Source of the DNA: Fomitopsis serialis
Lineage: Eukaryota > Basidiomycota > Agaricomycetes > Polyporales > Fomitopsidaceae
Direction of reading: 5' to 3'
NCBI RefSeq assembly: GCF_022376445.1
Contig: NW_025955015.1
Span: 124,001 to 188,000 of the forward strand
DNA length: 64,000 nucleotides
The position numbers and the translations under genes are program-made. Below the pieces are notes generated by a model, which did no database searches, was not told the origin of the DNA, and saw nothing but the letters and a program-made list of their open reading frames with translations. Positions 32,032 to 64,000 of the stretch are shown in pieces (position 1 is the stretch's first letter; each line of letters starts with the position of its first letter).

Positions 32032-32114
32032 GGCGGGTGGTCAGGCTGCGGCGGGTGCGGGGGTGCGGTGGCGAGGCGAGGGCAGTGGGGGAGAGGGGAT
32101 CGAGGGGTGCAGGC

Positions 32115-32127
32115 GGGGGCCTTATAA
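32115..32127 (-). promoter_or_regulatory. TATA-like box ahead of the Pro/His-rich gene
   Basis: The minus strand reads CCTTATAAGG about 85-95 bp before the likely ATG at 32031, in otherwise extremely GC-rich DNA. Position and sequence fit a TATA element. No experimental support is visible. Confidence 0.4.
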
Positions 32128-40390: not shown

Positions 40391-41169
40391 CGTCTCGATA
40401 TCCCGGCCCTTTGGTTTCGTGAAGACGTGGCTGAGCGAGTCCAGGTATTTACAAGAGTGGCAATCAGATAGCAGCGAGTCCACGCGTCAGAGCACGCCGA
40501 AGTCAAGACACCTTGCACACGCACGAAGAAACCAAGGACCTGATTGCATTCGAACAAGCGCTCAGATTGGTACAGTATGTACATGCCCCGTGGGAAGAAC
40601 CTTGCCAAAATACAATAATCATTATCCGTAAGTATTTCGGACAGAGTTACAGTACAGCTAGTTGCAGAACATTAGGCGCAGATGAACGCGCGCGACATAT
40701 GATGACAAATAGGCGCTATCCACACGAAGACGTCGGTTTACCCACCTCACCACACCTCGCACCACCATGTTTTTGTGTTGCATCGATTGTCCCTGCAGCA
40801 GCCGTCATGAGAGGCATGTCTTGCGACTCGCTGAACACGATCCCGTGGACGCCTTGCAGGAGTACCGGCCAGTGCCCGCAGACAATTGAACGTGTATCTG
40901 CCCCCTACACCCAGGTCTACGACGTCTGTCGGACTCGTCCATTGTAGCTGACTGCAAGTGGCGGTGTAGGGGAGGCATTGTTACATTGTTACTACTCTCG
41001 ATGTAATATACATTAATACGGTGTCCGAGGAGCGTGACCGCGTCGCTATTGCTCGGTACAGGTGCTAGTGCAGACGACCGTGAAGCCGCAAAAACATGAT
41101 GGTGCAGAAGTGGATGAACCAACGTCAACTGTGGCGCGGCGCTTATTTGTCATCGTATGTCGCGCGCGT
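40391..41169. other. intergenic, nothing recognised
   Basis: Upstream of the MPP6-like gene (start 40390). No coding similarity or repeat was seen. Confidence 0.35.
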
Positions 41170-41174
41170 TCGTC

Positions 41175-41345
41175 TCAGAACGTCAGGGAATTGAGAATTC
41201 CGGGGCGCGCAGTCCGGCGCACAGTCGGATGGTCGGCCGTCCCACAGAATGACGTCGTTGATAGGCACGGAGAAGCGCAGAACTGCTGTCGTTCGCAAGA
41301 TGGGCAGGGCGCGACGTTGACAGAGATCGTCCCGAAGCAGCATCT
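41175..41345 (-). repeat. fragment of a dispersed, formerly coding repeat (copy 1)
   Basis: On the minus strand this region has a string starting GACGTCATTCTGTGGGACGG (about 41229-41252) that is identical to 63954-63973 at the right edge of the window. Similarity continues for about 45 bp. Both translate to a peptide containing DVILWDGRP. In this copy the upstream matching part (CPSCERQQ) is in another frame, so it is broken. Family unknown. Confidence 0.55.
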
Positions 41346-41519
41346 GGCTGCTTCTTCAACCGTGTGAGTTCCAGAGGGCGCGGGAATTCTGTCAGAGGGC
41401 GCGCTGCCAACGCAACGTCGGTCGACCGTTGTGGTATATTCATGTCCTGCCGGCTTTGTCTTCCCCATCCCCTAATTAGATTCACTCTCCTTTAATTAGA
41501 ACCCTTCGTCCACATGTGG

Positions 41520-41820
41520 CACATGTGCTTCGCTGTCTCGTCGTTTCTATGAGGAATGAGCCAAGATGAGACTAATTGAACTTCGTGCAGAACAATACCA
41601 TACTTGCGACGTACTGGTTGCTTCGCTGACAGGACACACGACCAGACTGATGGAACTTTGTGCAGCACAAGAACAAAATGGTAACATACTGATTGCTTCG
41701 CTGTCGTCGGGTCTTACTACTGGCACGAGGCATGACCGGAACAATGGAGCTTCATGTGGAATAACACGATATAGGTAAGATACTGGTTGTCTCGCTGTCA
41801 TAGTGTCTTCTTGCTGACTG
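41520..41820 (+). repeat. imperfect tandem repeats ahead of the MULE gene
   Basis: Three to four diverged units of about 77-94 bp share the core (A/G)TACTG(G/A)TTG(C)TTCGCTGTC, ending at about 41539, 41626, 41703 and 41799. The units also share GGAACTT(T/C)GTGCAG-like upstream parts. They lie about 0.7-1 kb before the MULE start and could be subterminal repeats of that element, which is inference. Confidence 0.55.
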
Positions 41821-42541
41821 GTAATCAGCTATTCTGTTGGTCGGAGCAGCCATACACTGATCACGAAAACGAGTATATCGGTCCACCTCGTGTTTTCGGG
41901 CACGAATCCGCACCATGAGGATGGCGTCCGACAGTGTCTATGACCAGGTATGTGAAGTTCGTGCTCGCGATCGTCTTAGCCTGTGGTTGATTCGCATGGC
42001 CATGCTGCCGAACTGACAACCTTTGACGTGTGGATACACCGTCGGTTGCCTCATGCACCAGCACCGAAGCATTTGTCACCCCAAATGAGGTGGTTTCGGC
42101 CTCGTTCCACACAGCATATAGGCGATCAGCAGCGACATCCATCCTAATGTGGTGAGTAACTCGTCTGTGACACATTTCCTTGAGACCAATATACCGGGGT
42201 TTTTTCCAGAATTACAAGCGAATGTGTGACAGGGATATGCAGGCTGCCGACAGCCAGGAATAATCAGGACTGTCTGGAGGCATGGAGGGTCACTCGGGTC
42301 CTGATCCTGCTGCTCAGGGACTCTGGCCATCGGTGCGTCGCCCATTCTGCGATCCCCACTTCCTACGAGTCACTCATACCATGAAAAAGCTTTTCCATCT
42401 CTGCGAAGACAAGCCTCCGACTCGGTCACTGGACCAGGTGTGCCGATATAGTGCATTTCTCGTTGTCGTCGTTGACTCACAACACCGAACTGAATCTAGT
42501 CATTTGGACACATCATCAACACGACTCGAGAGGGCACAGGC

Positions 42542-43242
42542 ATGCACTCGGCTGGACCTGAGTGGGACGAGCGCCGCCTCGATGTGAAGGTATGCAATAT
42601 CAGTGCACCTGTGCCATTGTTTCGCTCATGCAGAGTTAGTGTAACATCAAGTCCCTTTATTGCACTGATGCTCAGCGAGACGAGATCAATGCAATATACA
42701 CGAATTCCAAAGACTTTGCAAGGGTCTATACAACCACACCATCGAACCAGGAGCTCGCACAACAGCTATTGCTCCTCAACAAGCTCGACGAAGAATCACT
42801 GGCCATGCTCGAGTCTCGATGGAGTCGGACTCACCAGCGAACGTGGAGGCGCCGAGAGGGAGAGGTTGAGCGCGTCGTATATCAATGGTATTTCAGCTCT
42901 GAATACAAGTAGGGTACAAATTTATATATTCTTCATGTGAAGTGTCTGTGGATACAACCACGATGTGCGAAGGCAGGGCAAGAAGAGAAAATGTGACGAG
43001 GAACCATCGACTGAGGATGCCACGGTCGCGGCGGGAGTTCGCCAGGCTCCTTACGACTATACAGGCTGCCTTGCACATGCCGATATCACGTATATGAAGG
43101 CTACTCGACAGCCGCTCCGGATTATGGGATATTTTGAGCACAACGAGGGCTGTCGAGCTGCAGCACTCAAATACACACCGTCAATCCCGCTGCATCCTCA
43201 TGTTTACGAAGTCGCTATACGACAGTTGCAACAGGGTGCTAG
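42542..43242 (+). CDS. MULE transposase gene, N-terminal part (exons 1-3), interrupted by a KDZ element
   Basis: Exons 42542-42589, 42676-42908 and 42973-43242 code for the N-terminal zinc-binding region of a fungal Mutator-like transposase. It has a Lys/Arg stretch (QGKKRKCDEEPS), then YDYTGCLAHADITYMKATRQ, LRIMGYFEHNEGCRAAAL and SIPLHPHVYEVAIRQLQQGA. These Cys/His spacings (GCLAHA, EHNEGC) are what I know from the N-terminus of agaricomycete MULE proteins. The third exon stops at an intron donor (GTAAGG at 43243) in phase 2. The matching acceptor is 11 kb away at 54305, because the KDZ element sits in this intron. The frame is intact. The start at 42542 is the first in-frame ATG. Continues at 54306. 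Confidence 0.85.
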
Positions 43243-43244
43243 GT

Positions 43245-43251
43245 AAGGACC
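43245..43251 (+). repeat. left target-site duplication, AAGGACC
   Basis: Seven bases repeated exactly at 54246-54252. The base before it differs (T left, G right), so an original 8-bp duplication with one change is possible. KDZ-type elements are known to make 8-bp duplications. Confidence 0.8.
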
Positions 43252-43274
43252 CAGGCTATACAGGCATATACATG

Positions 43275-43387
43275 TATAGAATACCTGTAGTTAGCGCAGA
43301 AGGGTGTATACATGAAAGGCCTGTACTTACCGCGGGCCGCTTCTCATACATGAGCCGCCACTCGCTCATGTATAAGCGAGGCGCCGC
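43275..43387 (+). repeat. left terminal inverted repeat core of the KDZ element
   Basis: Matches the reverse complement of 54110-54222 over 113 bp with two mismatches. It is rich in the palindrome-like strings CATACATG and CATGTATA, possible transposase contact sites. Confidence 0.9.
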
Positions 43388-43433
43388 CATGTATGAACGA
43401 GACGCCGTCATGTATGAACGAGGCGCCGTCGGT
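43382..43433 (+). repeat. 21-bp subterminal tandem repeat
   Basis: Two full 21-bp units (43382-43402, 43403-43423) and a partial third share CGCCGYCATGTATGAACGAG. A related string (CTCATGTATAAGCGAGG) sits just before them inside the inverted repeat. The right end of the element has a single such unit, so the array grew on the left only. Confidence 0.75.
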
Positions 43434-44005
43434 CGTTACCCGTTTTAGCAGCCACGCCGGGGTATCCCGTGGCCCTTACCATATCTGTACCGAACCCGGC
43501 CCCTTCGTCCGCAGCCACCGGCGCGCGATCTGGGGCTGCCCCATATGGATGCAGCATCGGGGCTACTGTCAGCGCATCTCAGATTAGGTACGATCTTGTA
43601 CCTTCCCTGTGCCTGGAGTCTCAAAGCAGACAGCCCGACAGCACAGGCAACCACGTGCACAGACGTGCTCGCCCAGCATGAAGTCCGTAGCATAGGCGCC
43701 CGCCGTCATGGATATTCTAAGTTGTAAGTAGCTGTACGTCGACGAGCAGGGCAAACTAGTTTGCTATTCATGTAATGTTCTTTCGTGTGCTACGACAACT
43801 CTGACAGGTTTGAAGCTCGGGCTTATGTCACAATGAAAGACATGCAATATTGATTTGTCAAAGCACAATAGCGAGACACAGGTAAGGATAGCGGAGTACA
43901 GACTACGTAGCGACGAGGAGGCATTCAGTATTCGAGTATATCATACAGAACAGCAGTGCTCAAGATATTGTTGCGCGCGCCGACATGGAAACCATGACAC
44001 GGCGT
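43434..44005. other. KDZ element interior without a gene
   Basis: Lies between the left terminal region and the end of the minus-strand cargo gene. Nothing coding was recognised; it should contain that gene's 3' flank. Confidence 0.4.
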
Positions 44006-46395
44006 TCAGACTGTACGTGGACGCTTCGAGGCCTTCTCAGCCAGAGCTTCATTTGCCTTTTGCTTTCCCACCTTTACAGCTGTCGCAGGGCCGTGACTCT
44101 CCTTGCCGCGCGCACTGGGCGGCTGCCAATCAGCGTCCGCAGGCTTGGGAGCTGTCCGGTCTCGGCGCGGTCGTCCCCCATGAGTAGACTGCTGCATCGC
44201 ATCCGTTAATGGGCTACGCGAAGACGTTTGGTCGGGCGTGGCGGACACAGTAATTACTGGTGTAGCCGTAGACATCGATACCGACATTGCTTCAGGCGAT
44301 GGCATCGACTCAGACATAGCAGCGACCGAGGTAGACGTGGGTGTCGCCGGCGGGGAGGTCACCGACGCGGTCGCAGCCAGCGGCGGCGTGAGCTCTGGTG
44401 TCGAGGTGGAAGTGTCTTCACGCAAGGAACCATCCTGTGCGTTCACGGCCGAGGCAGGCGCCACGGACATAGAGACAGAGGGTTGGGCGGTGGGCTGCGA
44501 TGGCACACCGATCGAGTCAAAGTTGAAGGTGAACGCTGTGCTTGAGGCACTCGCAGACTCGAATGTCGACGATGTGTCCGGTGGGAACGGGAAAGACGCG
44601 AGAGGGTCCTGGACATCAATGGTATTCGGCTTGTCCATGTAGGACACGTTCGAAGATTGCGAGGGTAGCCACAGTGATGGGTCAAACGGAAGAGCAGGTG
44701 GCGGGCTAGACGCGAAACGATATGGCGCGTCGAAGGGGCCCACGCTCGTGGGCAGTGACTGCACAGTAGAAGGTAAGGGATTGAACTCCGGGAAGACGAC
44801 GTTGTTGATGGTGGGTGCGGGCAGGTAACGTGCAATGTTCTCGGCCGTAAAGATGTCATCGTCGGCGGCCAAGGTGCTCGAGCCCATCGCGGATGTCATC
44901 AGCGTGGTCGGAAGAACGACGGGGATGGGCATGAAGCTGATGTCGATGTTCTCGAGCCCAGGGGTTGAGGAATCAGACGCTGGGAGAATGCCGGCACCTG
45001 CGCCACCTGATAGCAGCACAAGCTCGGGCGCGTTTGGTTCAGGCACCACGGACATGGTCCCCATCGACTCGGCAACAGGAGAAGGAGCCACGACTTGGCC
45101 AGGAGGAACCGCGACGTCGGCGGCCGTAGAGACGACCTCAGAACGAGGCGCGGTGATGTCGGCCGCAGGAGGGACAACAGCGGGAGCGGGGACAATATCA
45201 GCAGGAGGAGCTAGGGGGATAGTACTGGGGCCCGCGGGCTGGGTCGTCACCTGCGCGCTGTCGGCAGACACGAGAGGACTTCGCGAGCCACTAGGTAGCG
45301 CTCGACGCGCACGTTCAGCGGGGGCTAGAAGTCATGTCAGAAGGTGCAACGAAAGGATTGACAATGGACTCACGATATTTCGCATTAAGGAACTTCCCGA
45401 AGGGTTGCATCACATACTTCTCGTGGCCTGCATATGTAGCAGCAAAATCGTGGCCAGCTGCCGTCTTGCCGATATGGAAGCTAGAGAAGCAAGACTATCA
45501 GTAAACTCGTCGGTATCCGAGAGTCAGAGAGGACTCACCTGAAGGTCTGCAGCGCCCCACCTTCCTCCGGCCAGGGCCCTCCCCCGTAACAACTGATGGA
45601 GAGGCCCGTCAACTCCGAAGCCACCTTGAGTAGTGGTCCTAGAAATTGAGGTAGTTCTTTGATCGCGCTGCGAAGCAATAGCGTGTCAGCGTCTCCCAGA
45701 GGCAAGAACGAGAACGGTAAGATACCTATTGTATTCCTCCGGAGTGCGATTGGCGAGTGATGGCATCGTGGCCGCCGCCTTTTTGGCCAGTTCGATGGCT
45801 GCCTTCTGCTGTTGTATGTAACTTTGGACTTCGGCCTGAACCTCCGGAGGTTCCAGGCTGAAGGCCGATGCTAGTTCGCGACGAACTATGTTGATGTTTC
45901 GGGCCTCCGGAACGTCTTCGTCCTTGGTTGCATCGGCGACCGAGGCCTTCACCTTGTCTTGGTAGTAAAGTTTTGAGTACGCTTCTAGACGCTGCGGCGC
46001 GCGTTTGGCTGGAGGTGGGGCGGCCGGGAGGAGGGCCGCTAGCGTCAGGGCCTTTGGCGTGTCGCGGCGCGTCGCGTACACGTCATTGTAGAATTTGGAG
46101 CGCATTTGCTGCGAAAGATGAGTCAGTACCACGAGGCGGCAGCAGAATGGCCACGTACATCCTTCCGCTTTTGCAGGGCGGCACCGTATTTGGTCATCTG
46201 CTCCTCAGTGAGGTCGTCTAGCGCAACGTCTGGCCCGTACATCTTCGTCAGCTCTGGCCATTTCTCAAAGAATTCGCTCTCCGTCTCCGTCATAAACTGC
46301 GAGACCTTGTTGGCCTTCTGCGCAGCGAGAAAGCCTTGAATTCTCTCCTTGAAAAATTGCAGTTGCTCGGGCGTCGCCCACGACTTTGGCGGCAT
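44006..46395 (-). CDS. KDZ cargo protein 1, 724 aa: globular N-half, Ser/Pro/Thr-rich C-half
   Basis: Five exons on the minus strand (46159-46395, 45726-46108, 45539-45667, 45374-45480, 44006-45324), introns 49-58 bp, one clean frame of 725 codons. Residues 1-285 look folded: MPPKSWATPEQLQFFKERI, EFFEKWPELTKMYGPD, RLEAYSKLYYQDKVKAS, then IKELPQFLGPLLKVASE with a Gly-rich turn (CYGGGPWPEEGGALQTFS) and MQPFGKFLNAKYR. I know similar uncharacterised proteins with this start and with the GGPxPxEGG turn as multicopy genes in agaricomycete genomes, so it is likely a regular KDZ passenger. Residues about 300-724 are low-complexity Ser/Thr/Pro/Ala/Val with scattered Phe/Tyr and an acidic FTAEN patch, ending in a basic tail (RGKESHG...KASKRPRTV), which suggests a nuclear protein. 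Function unknown; activation-domain-like composition is only inference. Confidence 0.85.
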
Positions 46396-46596
46396 ATCTG
46401 TCGCGTGAACATCAGTCAGCGAGGGCGCCCCGCTCTATGTCCAGCACACGTACCGGGTGACCGGTCTAGAGGGTTTGGGGGATATCCCATACATGAAAGG
46501 CGGTGGTGACTGGAATTTTTTGCATAACGTTGACGCCGGCATTGACAGGTATCATCCGGGTTGAGTAACGAAGAGACCCCGCAATGCTTATCGGCC
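46396..46596. promoter_or_regulatory. divergent promoter between cargo genes 1 and 2
   Basis: 201-bp gap between ATG 46395 (-) and ATG 46597 (+). No specific box recognised. Joint control is inferred from spacing. Confidence 0.35.
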
Positions 46597-47548
46597 ATGC
46601 GACCGATGCATTGCGGAGGGCGAGGGAGCGAGAAGAAGGGCGAGTCGACAGGCAGGAATCGAGTGAGGAAAGGGAAGTCGTCGTGCCACATGAACGTTGA
46701 GTTCAAGGGAGCGCCTGAAGCCGCGCGAGGTGAAAAGGACCGAGTGGTGACAGGCATCGTGGACGCGATGCACATCCCGGCCACCTCAACGACGACGACG
46801 CCAGCGGGCTCTGTGCCCTCAGGCGCATCGTCTGAGAGCCCTGCGTCGCGCATCCCTGTCCCGAAGCGCAGACTAGCAGCGTTGACTCAGGGTAGTAAGT
46901 TCTGGGTCGGTCACATGCTCATTGGCTTAGCTAATGCACTTGCAGAGACAGTGCGTCCCAGACCTCTGAGTGCGCCCACGCCTCTCAACAACCTCGACGA
47001 GCTCCGCGCCGCCCTTCCTCTGGTGTCCTCGGCCCAGGTGGGCCATACTCTTCAGCGCACACCCCGTCGCCGACCTTTGCCAACCCCGCCACCACCCGTT
47101 CCCTCGGAGGGCACTGGCCACAGCTCCCCTGTCGCGACTCGGCCACGCTTCATCCCGCCCCTGCCTCCTATGTACCCACTTCCATATGGGACCCCTTTCC
47201 TTTCCGCTGCACCTTCGCGACGCAGGCCGAAGGAACAGACACGTGTCATTGAAGACTACAGTCCTCGGAAGGGAAAGTGGTACGTAGTTAGCAAGGGCAC
47301 TAGGGTGGGCGTTTTCAGCGACTGGTTAGTTGGTCTCAACACATCGTCTCCCCTGTCTGATTGCGCCGCCCAGGGAGCAGGCTTCGGGCTATGTGAACGG
47401 CGTGTCCGAGGCGTGCCACAAAGGTTACCGCAGCTACGACGAGGCGGTGGCTGCGTTCAAAAGGGCAGAGGATCGAGGCGATGTAAAGGTGCAACCGGGC
47501 CCGATCAGTGCCTACCATTCCGCTTTCGATTCTTCCTTCCGCGAGTGA
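46597..47548 (+). CDS. KDZ cargo protein 2 with RNase H1 N-terminal (RNA:DNA hybrid-binding) domain
   Basis: Two exons, 46597-47324 and 47374-47548, code for 300 aa. Residues 1-220 are Pro/Ser/Arg-rich and probably disordered (VPKRRLAALTQGSKFWVG, RRRPLPTPPPPVPSEGTG). Residues about 226-276 form the small fold that RNase H1 uses to grip RNA:DNA hybrids: GKWYVVSKGTRVGVFSDW, then (after the intron) a variable helix EQASGYVNGVSEACHKGY and RSYDEAVAAFKRAED. The family pattern KWYVVxxGxxxGVFxxW...YxSxxEAxxAF is fully kept. The catalytic RNase H domain is absent. The gene faces away from cargo gene 1, their start codons about 200 bp apart. A role in handling hybrids or replication intermediates of the element is inference. 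The start could instead be the Met three codons downstream. Confidence 0.85.
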
Positions 47549-47751
47549 CCGTGTGTGCATACGCCTTTCTTACTCTGCTCAAGTGCTTGTCATTGCTGCC
47601 TGTTTCCCCGCGATCGTAGCCTATCTTGATGTCCGTCGATGTACCGAACGGCTCTTCCGAGTCACGCGCGCATGTAATCAAATAACGTTGAACTCGATTG
47701 ATACTTGCACCGACTCATCACTTCCCCTTAGCTTCAACCTCCAGCGACGCT

Positions 47752-48513
47752 ATGGGTCGACGCGCGAAGTACTACACTGACGCCGAGAGGAAGGCAGCGA
47801 AAAACATGGCGCGAAAGAGGTATGACGGGACAGTTGCGTGAGTTGCCTGCACTACCTCGTCCACACTTCGGCGGCTCATGGCGGCCGTCAGCGGAAAGCA
47901 ATCACGTTCTCGCTGCAACGACAGAGCCTATACAAGGAAAAAGGAGTTCTTTCCGAGCCCTTTTCTCGGCTGGGACCCGTCGACCCTGCCGCCGCAAGTG
48001 CTAGTACTGGCTCGCGAGCCGTTCAAATCGCTTGGGCCTGTAGAGGGCTTGGATACGAGTGACCTTGGCCTTCATGAGAGACCATTCAAGTGGTTGGCCC
48101 CAGAGCACGACGTACTGCAGGAGAGTGGTGAAGGAGGTAGCGTCTTGGCTGCTGAGCGAGCTCTGCGCGAGCTCAATGGCAGGCAATTGGGGTTCATGGT
48201 CGAGACGGGCTTTCAGAGGATGAAGGAGAGGAAAGCCGTGGGCAGGGCTGGGATGGCCGACCTTGTGTCTGCATTGGAGAGCGAAGTGAAGGAGAGGCTT
48301 CGGGCTTGGGAGTTCACGGCGCAGGCTAATGTGGTGGTGGATCGTACAGTATATGCGAACATCGCCCGCGATGTGTACTTACACTGGGGTGCGAAACACA
48401 TATGCTGTTTAGCAAAGGAGGTGGAGACCATTCGTGCAGGCGTCGTGCGGCTCGAAGAGCTGGAAGTCGAGGGAGGATTAGCCTGGCAATGTATGAATAT
48501 AGTCACAGACTAA
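47752..48513 (+). CDS. KDZ cargo protein 3, 235 aa, basic N-terminus
   Basis: Two exons (47752-47837 and 47892-48513), 236 codons, clean frame. It opens with a strongly basic helix-forming stretch, MGRRAKYYTDAERKAAKNMA followed by RKRYDGTVAGKQSRSRC, of a kind seen at the start of many small mushroom transposon-linked proteins and reminiscent of the basic region of a bZIP. The rest is not recognised: FPSPFLGWDPSTLPPQVLVL, an amphipathic stretch LAAERALRELNGRQLGFMVE, and Glu/Lys-rich helices (GMADLVSALESEVKERLRAW) near residue 165. DNA binding through the basic start is inference. Codon use and intron size match the neighbouring cargo genes. Confidence 0.7.
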
Positions 48514-49576
48514 TTACACAAGTGAATGATTCTACGAATACCGTCGTTCTCAGTTAATGGGGTGAGCATGAATGTTTACCGGAGGAGAGAGAAGGCCTAC
48601 CATAAAACAGAAAATGTTGACAATGGACGGACAGTACTGCATGGCTACTTGCACAGAATGCGAGTAAGTAGCAGTGCTGCACTACCCTCTCGTTGGTACT
48701 GTGCGCGAGTGTGAAGACCATGTCGAGGCGTGTACACTAATTTAGTATGTACGTGACCAGGTTGATGCCTAGAACAAGCTTGCACATCTAGGTAAGCCAA
48801 CGAAGCATGCGTTCAACGCACAGCGTTATGTTTGCATTTGTCGCAACCTTCAGTGGGACCTTTAAACGACCCCCCATTGGCTGAGCGACCATCCGGCAGG
48901 TCGCTCAGCTACATCGGGGCCACATCTGGTGGCGTATTCCCTGATCTGGCCATGCGTTATCCCTCACGTGTGACGCCTGCTCGTTTGCGCGCCTCTCCCG
49001 TCTTTGCTACGCCCAAGCTACGCCTCCCACTCTGATAACCCTGTGCATCGTCGCTGTCGGCCTGAACGACGACGAACACCGCCCTGCGCTGTGCGTGCGA
49101 TGGGTCTGTCATGGCAGCACCGGTGAGTCTTCATACCTTCGGGTCGGGACCCGCTGATGACGAGGATAATGGCGGCGGCGTGATCTCCACGTCGTCCTTG
49201 TAGGCTTCGCTGTCGTCGACGGATCCGCGGTGCCTGCATTCCTCGCGACGTGCATGACATGCCTGGTTGCCCGCGGCATCGAGCTCGAATCAGACGACAG
49301 CCACCACGCGTAGTTCCGCTGCGTGTATCGACCGGACTCAAACGACACTTGTGCTTCCCTCCTTTGGACAGCGGAGACAATTTTAGGCTGACCACAAGCC
49401 TGGGCCATGCGGTGAGCTGACCTTCTTCCTCGCTCGAGATTTGTGTCGTTCATGTCTCATTTTGGGTCTGTTGTTGACAGGCCCATACCCGGCCTGGCAA
49501 AGCCTCCCGCGTCCCCACATTGCCGTCGGTTCCCGCCCCTCGTGCCTACTGTGTTTCGCGCTGCCTTTCCCGCATC
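48514..49576. other. KDZ element spacer ahead of the transposase
   Basis: No coding similarity recognised over 1.06 kb. It should hold the 3' flank of cargo gene 3 and the transposase promoter. The last 100 bp before the ATG are pyrimidine-rich. Confidence 0.4.
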
Positions 49577-52500
49577 ATGCCTGGCGCACGCAAACGACAA
49601 CGAACCGCCTTCCAACTCCATGCGGTTGCTGAAGAGGAACCCGATGCCACGCAGTCCGTAATGGAGACGGCTCGGCACACAGCGTTCGTGTCCGGGCCCC
49701 AGGGCTATAACTCCCAGATTACTTTCATCACCTTACCGCAGCATTCCGATGCAACATCTCAAGACCCCGGCGACGCCCCTGATCTGATTCGCGAGGATGG
49801 AGATGAGGCGCATGTGTACGCCATCACGGAGGCGGACACGGCTGAGGCCGAGGCTCGTAGACGACGACGGACCACTAGTGTACGTCGACTCCACACAGTG
49901 AAATGTGAGCGTGGCTAACCTCTGATTGCACAGGATCATCCGTTGTTGGAGTGGCGCGCCAGGGTTGACGAATGGCTCATGGAGCTATTGAGGCTCGAAG
50001 GTCGCGCGGGCTTCACGGATACGCAGTGCCCGACATGCCACGATGGGATTGCAGAGTACCGCTGTGAAGACTGCGCAGATCTACAGCTCTATTGTGCGGA
50101 TTGCACAGCCGGCAGGCATATGCGTTTGCCTCTCCATCGGATCAAGGTGATATCTTCCCAGGCAAGCCATGTTTCGTGACTAAATCCTTTGCCCAGCGCT
50201 GGGCCGAAGCCCACTTTCAGCACGCGAACCTCAAGAGCCTCGGCGTGAGTATGCAAATGGGCCACCCGTCAGGTCAACGCTGCCCGAACCCCAAACCGGC
50301 CTTCGACGACGACTTCGTAATCCTCGACGTCAGTGGTATCCACCACGTCGCGCTCGATTTCTGCAACTGTCATCGGAAGGTACACCTGCCCAACCAACTC
50401 ATGCGTGCGCGGTTGTTCCCTGCGACGGTCACGAATCCCAAGACCGCCGCCACGTTTGCACTGATGGAACTCTTCCACCTCCTGCGCACTCAGTCCAAGA
50501 TCTCCGCCTACGAATTCTATCACACGCTCGCGCGACGGACAGAGAATGTGGCACCACGAGAATCCACAGTATGTGCCCTTCCATCGTCCACTGACAGGAG
50601 ACACTAACCGCCCTCTGCACAGGATCGTTATCCCGCGTTTCTACGCATGTCGCGGGCTTGGAGCCACTTGAAAATGCTCAAGCGAGCAGGCCGTGGACAT
50701 GACGTCTCCGGCGTCGGCGGAACCGCACGAGGGGAATGCGCGGTGGAATGCCCGGCGTGCCCTCACCCGGGCAAGAATCTACCCGATAATTGGAAGGAGG
50801 CACCCGAGGGAGAGAAGTAAGTAGAATACTGTCCCTCGCGCACCTCCTGTGTTGACCTCCATTCAGATGGCTCTATCGCTTGTTCGTCGGCCTCGACGCG
50901 AATTTCCGCCTCAAACGCAAGAAGGTCTCCAGCGTAGCTGTCGACCCTGGCCTCAACCAAGGCTTTGCGTACTTCGTCGAGGACCACACCTACAAGGCCT
51001 TCTTGAATACTTTCGACACGAAGCTACCCCCAGAGACAAATACATGCCACAACCATGATGCCGTCAAACTTGCCAACATCAAGAAGATTCGTGAGACGGA
51101 CGCAAGTGGCGTGGCTACTGTCGAATGTGTTCGACACGACATGAAGCGGCCCGCCTCTGTCGGCGATCTACAATATGGCGAACGGTAAGCCAAACATCAT
51201 ATCAAATATTACTGCTCGCTAACCTGCCTGCAGCTATGTCAACATGGACTATCTCTATTTTTCGAGCCTCACGCATCACTGCACCGTCGAGGTGGTGACG
51301 TCGTACGATATCTCCTGCCAGTGGAGCCGGAACTTGCCCGCCCGCCAGGAACTCTACGGCCTCCAGTTCGATCGTATCCAATGCAAGTATCTCTTCCTCG
51401 TGCCGAAGCACCACCTCAATGCGCACCGCCTCGCCTGTCAAACGGCGTACTCCTTCAACTACACGAAAGGCGTGGGGCGCACCGACGGCGAGGCGGTCGA
51501 ACGAGGCTGGGCCGCCGTGAACCCGTTCGCGTCTTCCACGAAAGAAATGGGTCCTGGCCATCGACGCGACGTCTTGGACGACGTGTTTGGGAATTACAAC
51601 TGGGGGAAGGTCCGGAAGCTTGGTACTTGCATCAACCTTCAATCGCGCGCGGCGGTCCTAACAGTGTGCTACATCACAGGTCCGACACTTTGTAGGAAAC
51701 TGGAGGAGGCCCTTGAGCATATGTGTACCCTACGACATGCATTCGAGGAGTTCGGGGAGACGTTGCCGCTCGAGAGTGTGCGCGCATGGACTGAGCTAGT
51801 CGAAAAGTGGGAGATTGACCCTGCCAACTTCGAGAATCCTTTCGTAACTACGGAACCCGGTGCGTGACGTATGTTTGTCTCGCCATTGTCTCTGCTAACA
51901 TGAACTCAAGTGGTCACCGTCGCAGCAGTACGCCGCCAGCTCGCCGAGGAGGAAGCGGCACGCTTACAGGCCGGACACGACTTGTCATACCACGCGAGCA
52001 TGTCACCGAGTATCATGCTCGCGGCTGGGCTTGATCTTGAGAACTTGCAGTAAGTATACAGTGTTGCTCCCCACCATCCTTACGACTCCCTGATGCACGA
52101 CTCCCTGATGCAGATGTCGCCTTCGTCGGGAATTTCGAGGACTCGGGGAGCATAGCACTGACAAACAGCATGCTACCATCCAAGAGCGACTCAACAGTCT
52201 CCGTCGGAGACTAGAGGCATGGTTCAAGATTCAGCACGCGTACATTCCGGGTGCCGAGGCCTTCCGCGAACGTCTAGTACGCGACACGAACAAGGACGTA
52301 CCTGCATATGACATCCCTGTACTCCTCCCATCAGGGATCAGCTCGGCCCTGGAGGTCTCCGCTTTCTTGCAAGACATCGAGTGGCGACTGCGCCATGCTC
52401 AAGCCCACGACGCGCTCTCGGACTTACGGCGCCATCTCCACCTCCGAAGCCACCTCTACTCGTTCAAAGATCGATTCATCCGAGGTCAACAGGCGAACAC

Positions 52501-53585
52501 TCGTGCGCGGTCGATCATCAACACGACACAGGCCAAGGTTGACGAGAACGCCGAGCGGTATCGGCGTGCGCGTGCAGCGTTGGTCTCGCTGTCGGACCGA
52601 CTTGGGAGAACTGGCTGGGAAGCCACACTTCAAGTCCTCGAGGATCAGCACGTCCGAGGGCTGAAGCTGGACGAAAGCGAGGAGACGGAGGGTCGCCGCA
52701 CGCTGTCCTGGATATGGCGCACAACGCCACTCGCGGGGCCCGAGAACGCTGACGACCCTCACCTGCAAGAAGGTGTGTATGGTCTGTTCCACTATGATGA
52801 GGTGCTGAATCACATACCTAGCATTGCGTGTGGAATGGTGCAAGTCCCGCGCAAGGGCACACCGCTGGGAAGAAGAAGTACACCTGCTGGTCGAGGAGAT
52901 GCGTCGCGTCCTCGCCTATCACCAGTGGATGGCGCAACGGTGGCTCGGAAGGCACGACGCCCGTCAAGATTTACCTGTCGAGGTTCAGGAAGGATTGTCA
53001 GCTTATGCACTTCGCCAGGCCGAAATCCGCACGACCCTGCGATCGATCTGCGCGCGCACATGGCAAGACATAGGTACATGGGTGACGAATGCGATGGAGC
53101 TAATGTACGGAGATGGAGTCTTGGCCACGCCCGACACGTCCCAGCCTGCGGGCGCTGTGCAACCGCCAGGCATGAACGTGTCGACGGGCACAAACAGCGC
53201 AGCGACGAGCGCGAACCACGCGTCGAGAAGCGTGTCGGACACCGCGTCCACGAACGTGTTGGGCGCCGCGTCAACGAGCATGTCAGACGGTGTGTCGAGA
53301 AGTGTGTCGGATACTGGGTCGGCGAGCACAAACCACCCACGAACCAGTGTGAACGAGCCATCGGCCGCCATTGGCCAGGCATCAACAGGACTCGCCACTG
53401 CATGGCAAAGGCAATTGCAGGCCCTCCGCGTGGCAAGCGAGCCATTGGTTAGGGCGGGCGATGTATGGGATCCTGATCCTGCGGGTGATGGGTTGGAAGA
53501 CAATATGTGGGAGGACGAATCGTGTGGACCTGCAGGCGACGGATGGGAAAGCGAAGGGTGGGACGGTGATGATGGTGTAGTATAA
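49577..53585 (+). CDS. KDZ transposase with CxC2-type cysteine cluster, 1176 aa, intact
   Basis: DNA transposase of the Kyakuja-Dileera-Zisupton superfamily (RNase H-like fold). Ten exons: 49577-49879, 49934-50146, 50197-50568, 50623-50816, 50867-51184, 51234-51622, 51680-51859, 51911-52049, 52114-52772 and 52822-53585, all GT-AG, one frame of 1177 codons. The N-terminus (MPGARKRQRTAF) is basic. The Cys cluster at residues about 130-165 has CPTC, CEDC and CADC pairs followed by RHMRLPLHRI. The catalytic region has LFVGLDANFRLKRKK (about 370), TSYDISCQW (about 490), VPKHHLNAHRLACQ, and GVGRTDGEAVERGWAAVNP with ASSTKEMGPGHRRDVLDD (about 545-580); the Asp, Asp and Glu of these motifs fit a DDE triad. 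The C-terminal 400 aa hold a long helical region (NSLRRRLEAWFKIQHAYIPG) and a Ser/Thr-rich tail with repeated SVSDT. Confidence 0.95.
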
Positions 53586-54109
53586 GGCGATCTTGTCTGC
53601 CTGTTCCTTGGTGCTTAGTATAGTGTCGATCGTCGATATCATGAATAACGAACCTTTATGCTCGCTGTATTCGGCTGGCCTGATGATTTGTCGGGGCCCC
53701 AAACATACCAATTTAGGAGGGCTGCTGCTTTATTCCTTAGCCTCTCGCGTGAATGCAGTGTTCGGCATCGCGAGGAATGAAATGATAAGGGTATGTTGTG
53801 GAGTGTGACATGTGCAGCACGTATGTCATAGTGCACGACATACATGTACACCGTCCATCTGTTGGATCTCGATATAAACTATTGAGGCACGGCGGTGCCA
53901 AAACAATCCCTTTATATAGCACTGTACCTAGCCCCGGAAACCGTCAGATCTCGCCTGATCGCACATCGCGATCGCATTCGCCCGATGGGCCTGCGACAGC
54001 ACCCAGAGCGCCCGACAGGACCTATTTAGGGTAGGGCCGCCGCCGCGAGCCCCGGCGCCGGGTGACCTAAGCTGTCTCCAAAGGGCAGCTGCCTCTTTGG
54101 GTAGTAAGT
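53586..54109. other. KDZ element 3' interior without a gene
   Basis: Region between the transposase stop and the right inverted repeat. It is GC-rich close to the repeat. A weak stem (AAAGGGCAGCTGCCTCTTTG, 54080-54099) was noted. No coding signal. Confidence 0.4.
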
Positions 54110-54222
54110 GCGGCGCCTCGCTTATACATGAGCGAGTGGCGGCTCATGTATGAGAAGCGGCCCGCGGTAAGTACAGGCCTTTCATGTATACACCCTTTTG
54201 CGCTAACTACAGGTATCCTATA
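54110..54222 (-). repeat. right terminal inverted repeat core of the KDZ element
   Basis: Reverse complement of 43275-43387 with two mismatches. The outer end of the core is 23 nt from the element's right end at 54245. Confidence 0.9.
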
Positions 54223-54245
54223 CATAGGCCTGCCAGCACCTGGTG

Positions 54246-54252
54246 AAGGACC
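54246..54252 (+). repeat. right target-site duplication, AAGGACC
   Basis: Exact copy of 43245-43251 at the other end of the KDZ element. Confidence 0.8.
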
Positions 54253-54305
54253 TACCATCATTACGAGGCATTACAGACCCAAATTAACAGAATCATTGGG
54301 GATAG

Positions 54306-56835
54306 TGTCGCGCAAATCCAGAAGCGAAACATGGAGATGCTGCATGCTGCTGCCTACCGAGACCAACTGTCCCGCACTCTAACGACAACACTCCTGAACC
54401 ATCGATACGAGCTTCTGCCAGGCGACTTCAGCCGCTTATACCGCATGCATTATCGTCAAACATACAACATTGACGTCTCCGTAACACCCGAGCAGAATAT
54501 CCACAACTGGCTTCAACCTCACAGCCCACACTACCGAAAGGAGTTGGCAGAGTGCATATTCTACTACGCAGCTCGCATTGAACGCGAGGACAGGTTCAAA
54601 GTCTGCCTCGCGACGCACGAGATGAGGGATGCATCGTGGAAGTACTGTCATCAGAAACAACTCATCATCGATGGGACATTCGGTGTATGCACGTCACGTC
54701 TACTACTTTGGATCGCCATGGGAGTGGACGATGCAAACCGAGGGATACCCGTCGCCCTTTTTCTGTTCTCAGCACCCACTGGCAATCACGCGACACATGC
54801 CGGATACGACACGCAGATCCTCACAGAACTGCTTGGGCAATGGGCAGGATGGCTTGGTTCTCCGGATCGGCCATTTGAGCCATTCGTCGCAATCACCGAC
54901 ACCGATACCAAGGAGCGGGGGGCATTGGTCGCGGTCTGGCCCAGTATCATACTCTTGCTCTGTAAGTTTCATGTTCGGCAATGTTGGACGAACAAGCGAA
55001 AGACGCTCAAGCTCGGGAGACTCACGTCGATCTGGCAAATATCAGTGGATCAACGACTGCATGCACTTGAAGAAAGGTAGGGGCCTTCGCCATGCCTCAT
55101 TAAAGTGCTAGTGCTCACAAAAAAAAAAGTCTCCTACAGACAGTCGAATACGATGATGCATTGAGACTGATCAACGAAACAGAGGCGACGTTCAAGGCCC
55201 TTGTCACCGATGCTGAAGCCCAGAAGGCAGCAGACACTGTCGTAGAGTTTGTCAGTTACCTGCGCGCGACATGGATGCCATACGCACTTTGGCGAAGCTG
55301 GGCGAAGAGGGGGAAAGAAGATGCAGCAAAACGCATGAACGTTCAGATAGCAGCCATTCTCCCCACGACAAACCACCTCGAGTCGTTCAATGGCAGTCTG
55401 AAGCGGAAATACATTCCACAGTGGCAACACTCTGGCCACCGGCTTCGCTTGGATGTTCTGCTTGTCTGCATGAGCCTTGACATCATGCCCCGAGTCTATG
55501 CACGACAACGCATGCTCTCGCAGTTCGAAGTATGGAAGAAGGACCGGTTCGAGATCGCTGCAGGAGGTGTTCCGATCCAGCGCGCGAGTAGAATGCACAA
55601 TCTTGCTGGTCCTGCGGGGCAAGGGTCAGTGCATGCCTACACATGGTACGAGGAAGACGAACGACGAGACCAGGAGGCGTACCAGATCTACCATCGCCAA
55701 TCCCTTCGAGCTATTCCTGCTCGCCGACCTTACGAACTTTGGGCGACTTGCGATTCATCCCGAAATGCATTACCTAACCAAACACCGATCCGATACTGGC
55801 TCACAATCCACCCATCCGGGTCGGCGACGTGCACATGTATGGACTGGTTGAAGCGCGGAGGGGCCTGCAAACATCTCCGCGCCTTCAAGCTCCTCGTCGA
55901 GGCATGGGGCCGGCGCAACGAGCTAGACATCTCGTACGTCTTTCCGAAATCCTTGGAACAGGCGCGAGCCATCGATCAGCAGAACAGGCTATGGTATGGA
56001 GCGCAGTACTCACAAGCAGTGACGTCGACAGGCTCCGAGCCTGTCGCTATGCCCGAAGATGAAGGTGATCCGGGGGGCCTGCCTCCCCATATGCGAGTCG
56101 TAACACTGGCGGAGTCGGCGTCGCAAGGATGGGATGTGGCCGTTGCGTATGGTGCCATACTGCCACCACCATTGGTACAAGACCAAGCGGCTTCCCTTCT
56201 CGATGCAGCAGAGCTCCAACATTTGGCGAACGACGTGGAAGAAGTAAGCCCAATCGACACAGACGGTGAGTAGTGGGATTCGGATCGTACCTTTATAGTC
56301 AGACCTCTCACTGATTGAGTAGTAGGCGAGCCCATGGCGGGGTCGGAGGCGAGGCGAGGCGAGGCTGCCACCACCAATGTTCACGAGTTGGCGCAGCTAC
56401 GATGGAACCAAGAGGCTATAAGTGCACAGGTTCAGATTCAACTGGAACATGGTGTAGCCGAAGTCCTACCTTTCCTTCATGGCATACACAACACTCTGAA
56501 GGACGCACCGGATCCCCTTAGGCCGTCATCTGATATACTGGAATTATATCATTTGCTCGGCCAGCTCAAAGACGGACTGGAACCTCATGTGCAACAGGCA
56601 ATGAGTGACACACCACAAACACCTATACTGAGCACTGGTGAGCTTACCTCAGATTGTACCCGTTGTAGCACACTCACGTCTCGGCTCAATAGCAGGTCGT
56701 GTTCAAGCCAAGGCCAAGAGCATGTCGGGACCGCGCGAGGATGGAGAGCAAGTGGAGCGCGCGGTCCGAGTCGTCCCTCTGCGAACTTCTCCAGAGCGGA
56801 CTCAACGTCGCAAGGACTCTCATAAAATCAGATAG
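54306..56835 (+). CDS. MULE transposase gene, catalytic and SWIM part (exons 4-7)
   Basis: Continues the gene starting at 42542. Exons 54306-55076, 55130-56265, 56326-56637 and 56696-56835; with exons 1-3 the total is 970 codons in one frame. Catalytic blocks typical of MULE transposases: KQLIIDGTFGVCTSRLLL (first Asp, residue about 306), PFVAITDTDTKERGALVAVW (second Asp, about 385), LLCKFHVRQCWTN, and TTNHLESFNGSLKRKYIPQW (Glu, about 524). A SWIM zinc finger follows near residue 675: CTCMDWLKRGGACKHLRAF. The C-terminal 200 aa are acidic then helical and end basic (RTQRRKDSHKIR). The exon 4/5 intron ends at an AG directly after an A9 run, not at the CAG ten bases later, because only that keeps the frame. 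The gene is undamaged on both sides of the inserted KDZ element. Confidence 0.9.
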
Positions 56836-56969: not shown

Positions 56970-57622
56970 GGGGAGCTCAGACTGAACGGGCAAGGGTACG
57001 GGTACGGGCAAGGGTAGGTCACGGGGACGGTCCGGCCGCGCGGCAACCGTAGGGTTAGCAGTAGGGGCTGCCACGTAACGTTAGGGTTTGTGCAGCAGTA
57101 ATTGTACAATAGTTTGGTCCCGACAAGGTATATAGAGCACGTACATCCGTTTCGGTAGCATGATAGGAGGCAGCTAGATCGCCATCGCAAATGCGACGCC
57201 GCCATCCTCTAATACTTTGAAAACATATACCTAAGTACGTAGTTCTGCTTTCGGAAATGTTATGTTACCCGATTAGTATATTCCGCTTTCGGCAGGCGCT
57301 GGCACTTTCCCGCACTCGAGTTCAGCTGTAGTAGGCTATAGTAGGTGCATCGTGCGTACAATATTTACGAGCCATGTTGATTGTCATCAAATTGATTTTT
57401 CTCTTTGGTGCGCGTTAGCCTTGAGAGCCATACTGATTATGCTATCCAAATACTGTCTGTAACAAAGAGCAGTGGCGTAGAAGCTGGAAGAACTAGGCTA
57501 GGGTTAACGGTGGCAGCATCTACGCTAATTGTGGCTAACCCTACAGTCGCCGTGCGGCCGGACCGTCCCGTGACATGCCCTTGCCCGTACCCGTACCCTT
57601 GCCCGTTCAGTCTGAGCTCCCC
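56970..57622. mobile_element. 653-bp MITE-like element flanked by TA
   Basis: Inverted repeats of about 89 bp at both ends, 56970-57059 and 57534-57622. Each starts GGGGAGCTCAGACTGAACGG and includes repeated GGGTAC/GGGCAA units and a TAGGGTTAGC inner edge. Only a few bases differ between them. The dinucleotide TA flanks both ends (56968-56969 and 57623-57624), as in Tc1/mariner/pogo-type insertions. No transposase lies within, so movement would depend on an enzyme made elsewhere. It sits 134 bp after the MULE stop codon. AACCCTA strings at the inner edges resemble telomere repeats by chance or by origin. Confidence 0.85.
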
Positions 57623-57624
57623 TA

Positions 57625-60069
57625 ATGTTCAAACGTTCAACGTTCAACGTTTCAACTTGGGTCACCGTCACCGTCCTCCTCCGCCTCCACACCAGTACGT
57701 TCACTACCCTGCTCATCGAGTAGCAAGACATCGCGCCTGCGTTCGCGCATCGAAGCCCCCACCCCGCGCCCAAGGTCGGCAACTATAACGAGAGCGGGAA
57801 CTCAGCCCCTGGTGCTCACGGCGGTATTACTCGCCGGCCTCCTCACCCTGCGGGATCGGCTTGATGTATGGTTGGAGTCATGCGCGGGTGAGTGCGTCTG
57901 TGCGCTGACGAACACGTCTTCAACTAACGGACAACCTTCCCTAGCATGTCCTCGAGCGACTATCCCAAACACCTGAGTGTCGTGCACACCCTCTACCAGG
58001 CAGATCACCCTCCTCATCCTCCTTGCGGGTCGACCACGTTCAAGACCACCTGCATGCCGCCTCGCTTTCAGGCCCTGCTGCACGCACGCCCGAAGCTCTC
58101 GTGGACAAGCCATAGTGATGCATACTTTGGCTCGGCCAGGTGACCGCATCCATGGCCTTCACGGGATGCTTGTGCGCGGCAGCAGGCATACCCTCCAGCA
58201 CCCACACTCTCGCAACCCCGACTCTCTGGACGGCGGATCCGCCGCGGCGCAGTTGAGGATACTCGCCTGGCTCAGCCGGCGAGTGCTCCCACTGTTAGCT
58301 CTCGCGTAGGCCCCTCCGCCTTCCAATGGTAGTTGAGCAACTTCAAAGCCACTCGGTTCTTCTGCGCAACGGAGTCGCAACCCGCCAATGACACTTGCAA
58401 CCACCCACTGAACACATTCATTGCCGCCCTTCAACCGCCCCTCGCGTTCCTGCATGCGCATCTGCAGGAAGCCCGACTCAGGCGCAGACCTGGCCAGGGC
58501 CGCCCTTACCTCGCTCTCGTCCTCTCTCGCCCTTGTTCTCGCCCTCGCGTCTGCCCGCGTCTTCGCCCAAGCACTCTCGCCAGTGCCCGCTAGCAACCAC
58601 ACCCTCCGTCTTGCCCTCGCGCCGCCCCTCTTGCCCTCGCGCCGCCCTCGCCTTACTGGGACTGGCAGGTACCAACAGTAAGTGTGTTTATCTGTGATTA
58701 TGCCATGCGCAGGCGCATGTGGCTCACGTCTCAATCCTGTAGTGTTGCGGCGGCGAGTTCGTTGCGTTCCGGAGATGCAGGGCTCGGAAACCGAAGTACT
58801 AGGGGAAGGAGTGCCAGAGCCTGGCATGGAGGGAGGGCCACCGGATCTAGTACAGCGCGAACGACCACGAGGAGGACGGCGACCACCACGCCGACGCGGA
58901 CGGGCCAGAACGCGTCGGCAGGTACGGTCATATTAGATGGGACGGTGGACATACTGGGGGGCGCGGCCCCCCAGCGGCACGCGAGCGCGAAAGACATAGC
59001 TGTACGGCGACGGACGTGCTTCGCCGAGAGCAAATGATGGTTGCCGCGAGGATGGGCACGACTCTCATGCGCTCGGGGGCTCCAGTTGACCTCAGTCGGG
59101 AACCCAGACGACATGATGCTGGGCTAGCTGCCCGAGCTGTACGTTCGCCCCGTTTTGCCCGACGCCCATGCTCTGCCGCGCAAACCACCTTGCACTGCAC
59201 TCGCTCTCCCAGACTTGCTGTACGTCGCTCGGCCAACTGCCAGTGGGCCTTGCTGCAACGGGACGAAGCTCAGTAGGCGCCTTGCGTTGATGTTTGCGTT
59301 GGCTTCGGGCCGGGTAGTCGCATCCGCACTGCGCTGATGAGCTTCATCTCACCCTTGCAGGCCTGCATCAATCTCGCGACCAGCTCTTGCGCCCCGTCGA
59401 GAATGCCAATGCACGGCTGCAGCGCCGCGCATCAAGTCGAGAGCACCGTGCGAGCGCGGGGCACGCTGAGCCGCCGTAGCGATGGCGCTCGCAGTGCAAC
59501 CAACCCAAGCCGCGCATGTTACCGCGCCCGCCGACGATGCGTCGAGGCCCGACGCCGGGAGTGGCTACGCCGAGCGCTAAGCCGAACCCCCGAATCTCTC
59601 CTTCCTCCGAGGACGCTCGCTCTTGCTCTCCCGCTCCTCTTCTCGACCCAGGAAGCTCTCGTCTCGACTTCAGTCACTACAAGTCTCCGCTTTGTGATCT
59701 TGCTAACCCGCCGCGAGACCACGCTATCACAGTTGCGCCTGCCAGTCCCGCACCAAGCACCAAGGGCTGAGCGAGACGTGATGACCACGAAGCGAGAAGG
59801 ACACGATGAGACTGTGAAGGAGCAGGATGGTGGGAACAGCATGAGCTGAAAGGACGCAAGAGCGCCGCATGCCGAAGGTATGCCCGTGCCAATGATGCGC
59901 TTAGAAGATGCCCGCTGGATCTTGAGGGCTGCCGTCCACCTCGGCACCGACCTTGAGTGCGGGCGGCCCGCCGCTGCCCTGCGGCGCATTGCTGGCCTCG
60001 GAGGTAGAGACGGCGGCGGCGCTCGCGCTGGTGCCAGTCCCACATGGCTGCGTCGACCGCGGCAGTGGC
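57625..60069. other. 2.4-kb region, no gene supported
   Basis: GC-rich, with overlapping open frames on both strands (58159-58827 minus, 59337-59849 plus, and others) that show no domain. N-terminal exons of the PIN-domain gene that follows could lie here but were not recognised. Confidence 0.35.
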
Positions 60070-63879: not shown

Positions 63880-64000
63880 TGCCAGTCCTCATTCGGGACT
63901 GACAGCTTCTGTCAAGATTGACGTGGCACGCGCGGTGGACGCGTCCAGGCCTGACGTCATTCTGTGGGACGGCCGGCCAGCCCGCACAGTCCGGGGACTG
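63880..64000 (+). repeat. dispersed, formerly coding repeat (copy 2), cut by the window edge
   Basis: Shares at least 20 identical bases, and similarity over about 45 bp, with the minus strand near 41229. Open frame through the edge: KWYLIWRDRALCPNCASPHS, then a segment with DVILWDGRPA. The CxxC and the WDGRP segment are shared with copy 1. The full element extends beyond this window, so its type is unknown. Confidence 0.5.

Follow-up and report, generated by a model that had tools for sequence, protein, structure and literature searches.

A complete KDZ transposon nested in an intron of a Mutator-like transposase gene of Fomitopsis serialis

The window, by which we mean the whole 64,000-nucleotide stretch of Fomitopsis serialis DNA analyzed here, contains one complete DNA transposon inside another. 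An 11-kb element encoding a KDZ transposase lies in the fourth intron of the transposase gene of a Mutator-like element (MULE), and, as the initial annotation had proposed, the coding sequence of the MULE is unbroken on paper. The nest is defined by the ends of the two elements, the target site duplications (TSDs) of both, and an uninterrupted intron in a sister MULE, and a near-identical copy of the insert elsewhere in the genome marks it as recent. We put a probability of roughly 80% on the reading that the KDZ element entered the MULE intron recently and by chance, and that this MULE copy was most likely silenced or damped as a result. All comparisons were made within a single genome (66 Mb in 806 contigs).

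The host transposase gene is modeled on the forward strand with eight exons that encode 1018 amino acids and a stop codon. Exons 1–4 (42381–42437, 42500–42589, 42640–42887 and 42943–43242) precede the interrupted intron, and exons 5–8 (54306–55076, 55130–56265, 56326–56637 and 56693–56835) follow it, carrying the MULE transposase domain (PF10551; Pfam, 1.1e-7; score 32.6 bits, cut-off 27.6) together with a weak SWIM match that, at 17.7 bits, falls under its cut-off of 19.6. The gene had been annotated with seven exons and a start at 42542, but this position lies within exon 2; the start is placed at 42381, giving the N-terminus MKKLFHLCED, which is conserved in the sister copy (C142), as are the positions of introns 1–5. 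Intron 4 (43243–54305) has the GT donor at 43243 and the AG acceptor ending at 54305 that were first read from the sequence. The exons on its two sides do form one open frame, although not one of 970 codons, as had been stated: even from 42542 the count is 985. A branch-point-like TTAAC and a TAG acceptor (54284–54305) sit downstream of the insert; both signals are intact, as is the donor. The intron measures 11,063 nt, which shrinks to the predicted 62 nt when the insert and one copy of its TSD are subtracted; the remaining six introns of the gene are 50–62 nt long. The presence of this intron in a related MULE had been set beforehand as a check, and the C142 copy, with 75% amino acid identity over the exon searched, is indeed interrupted at the corresponding place by an intron of just 64 nt, free of any insert. 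The ratio pN/pS between the window and C142 transposases is 0.30 (bootstrap 95% interval 0.27–0.34; 837 aligned codons), which shows purifying selection on the protein in this comparison.

The inserted element occupies 43252–54245 (plus strand; 10,994 bp) and has the termini 5'-CAGGC...CCTGGTG-3'. Its ends were fixed by comparison with other members of the family, which have them in common. It is bracketed by a perfect 7-bp repeat, AAGGACC, at 43245–43251 and 54246–54252, the same direct repeat that was picked out originally, and the left copy begins at base 3 of the intron, just past the GT. The inverted ends described at that stage exist in a modified form: two 116-nt arms, at 43272–43387 (plus) and 54110–54225 (minus), are 98% complementary, but they are subterminal, and the outermost ~20 bp of the left and right ends are unlike. 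TATACAT, found at the ends of these inverted repeats, was considered as a TSD and rejected, as other copies put the termini ~20 bp farther out on both sides. A perfect 7-bp TSD is present in seven (C501, C256, C457, C144, C257, C358 and C795) of the eight members with both ends readable, a count that leaves out C124, with its damaged right end, and more distant members; C788 is the exception.

The transposase gene region of the KDZ element (plus strand, 49520–53585, with approximate limits) has several exons, as judged from Pfam matches and exon-like open frames. It contains a CxC2 cysteine cluster (50092–50604; Pfam, 9.8e-44) and the KDZ domain (PF18758) in two parts, at 50880–51185 (1.1e-17, profile positions 3–98) and 51244–51864 (1.8e-36, profile positions 102–217). 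A search of solved structures with the KDZ domain returned none at E ≤ 0.01. Three further reading frames on the minus strand (44006–45271, 45686–46132 and 46123–46395, spanning 44006–46395) have no Pfam match. The element is probably autonomous, although four of the seven one-base indels that separate it from its closest copy (see below) fall in these minus-strand frames; a true shift of frame in one of the copies and an error of sequencing are the two explanations for them.

The ends found for the host element place its limits well beyond the transposase gene alone. The complete MULE runs from 41227 to 63982 (plus strand), a span of 22,756 bp with the KDZ element and 11,755 bp without it and one 7-bp TSD, so that the insert makes up about half of the 22.8 kb. 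Its 30-bp terminal inverted repeats (TIRs; 41227–41256, plus, and 63953–63982, minus) are identical at 28 of 30 positions and are flanked by a perfect 9-bp duplication of CGCACAGTC (41218–41226 and 63983–63991). Homology to the C142 copy spans the region between the TIRs, and both copies seem large for a MULE even when the KDZ element is discounted. A pattern search of the genome with the TIR found seven forward and seven reverse sites, 14 in all, with none in either orientation in the control; four of the 14, the ends in the window and in C142, match by construction. The 9-bp TSD is perfect in five of six TIR pairs, those of the window and C142 among them. Two of these five pairs represent a single C189 locus that occurs twice with identical flanks; the pair in C463 fails. 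Pfam analysis of eight frames from the 3' half of the MULE gave only two weak matches, both under the cut-off. Chimeric assembly joins usually fall in repeats, and the genome is in 806 contigs; even so, the 7-bp and 9-bp duplications are perfect at both pairs of junctions and the ends agree exactly with those of other copies, which leaves the chance that the nest is an assembly artefact close to nil.

The age of the insertion can be judged from another copy of the KDZ element, in C256, where the same 11 kb is found with identities of 99.86% (9,984 bp) and 99.80% (1,020 bp). The two copies differ by eight substitutions and seven one-base indels in ~11 kb. By this measure, the insertion into the MULE is recent. 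The C256 copy has a TSD of its own, GAGTCCC, and the MULE gene of the window is absent there; the C142 MULE, conversely, is without the 11 kb. The possibility that the 11 kb belongs to the MULE itself, which had also been named beforehand as grounds for refutation, is thus rejected, in keeping with the original description of it as a separate element. Because the insert is so young, the intact frame of the MULE is uninformative about whether the gene still functions, and the initial suggestion that the arrangement is possibly tolerated finds no support in it.

The sequence of events that we favor starts with a recent jump of a complete KDZ transposon into a complete MULE, with AAGGACC, the target from base 3 of intron 4 of the transposase gene, being duplicated on insertion at a site that was probably hit by chance. 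An 11-kb insert with frames on both strands, lying between the donor and its own acceptor, would probably block efficient splicing; with all the remaining introns at 50–62 nt, one of this length would, we think, be removed inefficiently. In that case, transcription starting at the MULE promoter would mostly run on into the KDZ element. Translation past the intron 4 donor meets a TAA immediately, and such transcripts would encode 231 complete codons plus one, ending ahead of the MULE domain. The MULE copy is therefore most likely silenced or damped, whereas transposase supplied from elsewhere could still mobilize its DNA together with the TIRs and the KDZ cargo.

Alternatively, the insertion could be tolerated, with the 11-kb intron spliced out, both transposases made and both elements autonomous. 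The splice signals and frame of the MULE are intact, and introns of eukaryotic genes often hold transposons (PMC7145194). Over the 300 nt at the donor end of the interrupted intron, a simple consensus scan detected no pair of branch point and acceptor that could act as a decoy. Together with the intact splice signals this slightly favors splicing; however, the scan says little, because it also misses four of the gene's six other introns. Against tolerance are the short lengths of those six introns, the frames on both strands of the insert, which presumably bring promoters and polyadenylation signals of their own, and the youth of the insert, which deprives the intact frame of meaning. We regard tolerance as a minor but real prospect, and silencing or damping as the better account of this MULE copy.

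A further question is whether the KDZ element targets introns or other transposons, or uses the MULE for transport, the hitch-hiking that had been suggested at the outset. The TIRs and perfect TSD of the MULE bracket the KDZ element, so a single transposition could move both, and three of the insertions examined touch other transposons: that in the window, that in C256, which adjoins an RVT_2 frame, and that in C257, which adjoins a gag/protease frame. The latter two, however, border open coding frames of retrotransposons and not introns, and transposon-rich DNA would receive insertions without any targeting. The sample is small, with 20 open frames recovered from 16 of 18 KDZ flanks and only four of these matching at E ≤ 0.01 (RVT_2, protease, HEM4 and a weak ABC2 below its cut-off). 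No intron preference was apparent among the few flanks examined, and intron targeting was rejected on this basis. Introns account for 397 of the 3,454 nt between the start and stop of the MULE gene, so an intron would be struck by ~11% of insertions placed at random in the gene. The MULE would moreover be a poor vehicle, being rare: MULE-domain matches occur at three places in the 66 Mb, the exon search finds this family at two (E ≤ 0.001), and an exon matches at 100% identity at one place only. Searches of the genome for MULEs revealed no second composite of a KDZ element within one. Both targeting and hitch-hiking are in our judgment very unlikely, and a chance insertion fits these observations.

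Apart from the KDZ element, the MULE contains other acquired DNA. A stretch at 59904–61327 (plus) matches a host EST1A-like gene at 86% (C445:719174–720623), and the host locus has a PIN_4 domain (Pfam, 5.2e-18) and matches EST1A in the PDB (3.3e-9). A second, smaller fragment of the same gene follows at 61327–61426 (plus; 80% over 100 bp to L066:703–802). Fragments of the EST1A-like gene are present in both full-length MULEs, and these MULEs have apparently captured this host gene more than once. By its name, the EST1A/SMG6-like gene is related to the nuclease of nonsense-mediated decay. One could imagine that the nest is a working two-transposase composite in which splicing of the 11-kb intron suffices for the MULE to produce transposase, the MULE carries the KDZ element, and the repeated capture is no accident, the fragments damping the decay of aberrant transposon transcripts, those of the overlong intron included, but we consider this extremely improbable. 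Behind the transposase stop codon, a MITE-like element (56970–57622) with ~92-bp TIRs and a TA duplication is also nested in the MULE; it occurs at 13 other places in the genome, eight of them at 98–100% identity, and its ends and TA were seen in the window and two other copies. Elsewhere in the window, Pfam gave nothing informative for six of the seven long frames at 5–37 kb, and a scan for tRNA genes found none.

The nested insertion is a clean, well-preserved case of an ordinary and known type of event, nested insertions in MULEs being common in plants. What sets it apart is its completeness, with both elements, both TSDs, a sister copy with the empty intron and a near-identical second insert in one genome. 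It also offers a natural test of the spliceosome, faced with an 11-kb intron that is packed with foreign genes and has to be removed. According to PMC3903597, 191 of 530 candidate coding MULEs in maize (36%) and 195 of 476 in rice (41%) have nested insertions, which lie in coding regions in 24% and 12% of the nested elements, respectively; the inserts are mostly LTR retrotransposons in maize, while 107 of the 195 rice elements hold one MITE. There, as here, transposons sit inside transposase-encoding MULEs; the present case is a KDZ element in the intron of a fungal one. A search by titles and abstract openings found no published transposon in an intron of a MULE or other transposase gene, which does not prove absence, and a search for fungal intronic transposons that end transcripts early returned only an unrelated match.

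The inserted element is Kyakuja-like, an assignment made from its TSD, termini and domains. According to PMC12730594, Kyakuja-1_LB and Kyakuja-2_LB of Laccaria bicolor, in the Agaricomycotina Kyakuja group of KDZ elements, have a 7-bp TSD and 5'-CA..TG-3' termini and lack a terminal inverted repeat. Our element shares the TSD length, the termini and the absence of an inverted repeat at the very ends, and it has both a KDZ domain and a CxC2 cluster by Pfam. It differs in its long subterminal inverted repeats and in lacking the TET/JBP gene that both Laccaria families carry: TET/JBP cargo was rejected, as the genome has 71 TET/JBP matches (36 above the cut-off) but none on it or on its C256 copy. 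The host resembles fungal Mutator-like elements in its MULE domain, 30-bp TIRs and 9-bp TSD (PMC6446971); SWIM, which some of those elements have, is matched here only below its cut-off. The two copies here, which measure 11.8 and 12.9 kb once the KDZ element is discounted, are loaded with host-gene fragments. The repeated capture of a single host gene by MULEs that encode a transposase may be the more interesting thread. A host-gene fragment between the TIRs of a MULE-type element recalls Pack-MULEs; as described in PMC6446971, however, Pack-MULEs are without a transposase gene, whereas the carriers here encode one and have apparently taken the same host gene repeatedly.

The observation in the initial annotation that a KDZ transposon is nested within an intron of a MULE transposase gene is confirmed, with small corrections, and the reading offered there finds partial support. 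The MULE exons stop at a GT (43243) and restart past an AG (54305), with the Kyakuja-like KDZ element between them in intron 4. Our model of the MULE gene has eight exons encoding 1018 amino acids plus a stop; its first conserved codons (MKKLFHLCED) are at 42381, upstream of the start annotated earlier. A search of the genome (66.2 Mb, 806 contigs, the window being positions 124001–188000 of contig C501) at E ≤ 0.001 returned a sole other copy of the gene, on contig C142, with 75% amino acid identity over the exon searched. When aligned to both flanks, this copy contains an uninterrupted 64-nt intron (GTATGT...GGTCAG) at the matching position. Removing the insert and one copy of its 7-bp duplication from the window intron leaves 62 nt, as the initial annotation proposed. 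Intron positions match in the two copies at all five introns compared (1–5 of seven).

The ends of the KDZ element were set by aligning 30 of the genomic stretches that match its left end (at least 58, with 40 of 62 candidates scored) and then pairing left and right ends. The element spans 43252–54245 (10,994 bp, 5'-CAGGC...CCTGGTG-3'), and the 7-bp direct repeat noted around it is a target site duplication (TSD), AAGGACC. A perfect 7-bp TSD is present in seven of the eight family members with both ends readable, the exception being on C788; the other members carry GAGTCCC, CTCGGTC, AGGGGTA, AAGACAT, ACATTCC and GCCAAGG. Inverted repeats of 116 bp begin about 20 bp inward of the element ends, and three 21-bp tandem units (43366–43430) lie along the inner margin of the left one; at a guess, they may be transposase binding sites. 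The transposase encoded by the element has a KDZ domain and a CxC2 cluster (Pfam). One in-frame TAA (51186–51188) is flagged where the upstream KDZ exon ends; judged by its place, it sits in the apparent donor of the following intron, the exon borders being provisional. Genome-wide there are 108 KDZ domain matches, with each exon counted separately, and 71 TET/JBP profile matches (36 above the cut-off); no TET/JBP match falls on this element. Such a family content would be consistent with a basidiomycete. Elsewhere, at G000:C144:20590-50934 (G000 is this genome), two KDZ-family ends flanked by a perfect 7-bp TSD are about 30 kb apart; with a further KDZ match and a TET/JBP match between them, this locus looks like a deeper nest.

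A second full copy of the KDZ element is found at G000:C256:4449-26778, adjoining a reverse transcriptase (RVT_2) frame. It is 99.86% identical to the window element over 9,984 bp and 99.80% over 1,020 bp, the differences being eight substitutions and seven one-base indels, four of the latter within minus-strand frames. An 11.3-kb LTR retrotransposon, whose LTRs are 99.8% identical, interrupts this copy in turn. The near-identity of the two copies indicates that the KDZ element moved recently. The 11 kb, absent from the C142 MULE and present on C256 without this MULE gene, is not part of the MULE.

The initial annotation also called the nested arrangement possibly tolerated. On paper the interrupted gene can be spliced: the KDZ target begins at intron base 3 and leaves the donor GTAAGG whole, and a branch-point-like TTAAC and the acceptor are located behind the insert. 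The absence of a decoy acceptor from the initial 300 nt of the interrupted intron in a simple scan would favor splicing, but the same scan misses four of the gene's six other introns. Those six introns are 50–62 nt long, as against 11,063 nt for intron 4, which also holds reading frames on both strands; moreover, because the insert is so young, the intact MULE frame is no evidence of tolerance. We therefore regard tolerance as improbable. Unspliced transcripts would meet a stop codon right past the donor, ahead of the MULE domain, and this MULE copy is most likely silenced or strongly damped by the KDZ element.

Across exons 1–6, the window and C142 proteins share 64.5% of aligned residues, and pN/pS is 0.30 (95% bootstrap 0.27–0.34; 837 codons). 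As synonymous sites are saturated (pS 0.75), purifying selection has acted on the transposase through most of the time after the two copies separated.

The complete MULE is much larger than its gene. Comparing the window with itself brought out 30-bp inverted repeats well beyond the gene (41227–41256 and 63953–63982), and these terminal inverted repeats (TIRs) are bordered by a perfect 9-bp duplication, CGCACAGTC. The element thus delimited is 22,756 bp long, and the KDZ element with one 7-bp TSD accounts for 11,001 bp of this; the C142 MULE is also full length (40103–53026). A TIR pattern built from the window and C142 ends occurs at 14 places in the genome (seven forward and seven reverse, four of the 14 matching by construction), compared with none on either strand for the reversed pattern. 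These places form six inverted pairs, five with a perfect 9-bp duplication, and single ends lie on C102 and C54. Pairs 0.6–0.9 kb apart look like non-autonomous MULE derivatives: one on C79 (G000:C79:151901-152759) and two on C189 (G000:C189:16807-17671 and 38219-39083) have perfect TSDs, the C189 pairs being a single locus that occurs twice, flanks included, while the TSD on C463 (G000:C463:6103-6676) is imperfect. Directly behind the transposase gene, a MITE-like element (56970–57622) with TIRs of about 92 bp and a TA duplication is nested; it has 13 other places in the genome, eight at 98–100% identity. Open frames at the MULE 3' end (61754–63172, minus strand) are partly conserved in C142 and represent a possible second MULE gene, with no convincing Pfam match. 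Elsewhere in the window, a GC-rich stretch (30972–33853, up to 71% in 2-kb windows) contains four long, partly overlapping open frames on both strands, and the three scanned gave no Pfam match.

The 3' half of the window MULE also contains host sequence. Fragments of an EST1A-like gene lie at 59904–61426, and positions 59904–61327 are 86% identical to C445:719174-720623 (locus L066, on a 1.09-Mb contig). A PIN domain is encoded at this host locus (5.2e-18), and a comparison with solved structures gave just three matches, each to EST1A (best 3.3e-9), also called SMG6. The homology extends over apparent introns, so the fragment was probably copied as DNA. At about 46236–50727, the C142 MULE carries the same region at 89–90% identity, plus a further tract of 1,529 bp from this host gene at 99.15%, which suggests a second, recent capture. 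Across 1,402 sites compared, the two MULEs agree against the host at 36, the window MULE agrees with the host at 87, and the C142 MULE does so at 135. As divergence between the two MULEs is far greater in their coding regions than in these fragments, the host sequence was probably taken after the lineages split, i.e. more than once; exchange of fragments between MULEs is the alternative to repeated capture.

Introns make up 397 of the 3,454 nt from start to stop of the MULE gene, so random insertion into the gene would place roughly one hit in nine in an intron. Of 20 open frames taken from 16 of 18 flanks of other KDZ-family members, four gave matches (E ≤ 0.01): the RVT_2 frame beside the C256 copy, a gag-type protease frame adjoining the C257 copy, HEM4 near the C788 pair, and one weak match. 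The family thus also lands beside or in coding frames. The nest is a fine instance of an ordinary arrangement of a known kind. Nested insertions are reported as common in coding MULEs (191 of 530 in maize and 195 of 476 in rice; PMC3903597). Kyakuja elements of Laccaria are reported to have 7-bp TSDs, CA..TG termini and very ends without inverted repeats (PMC12730594), and the KDZ element in the window is alike in all three features.
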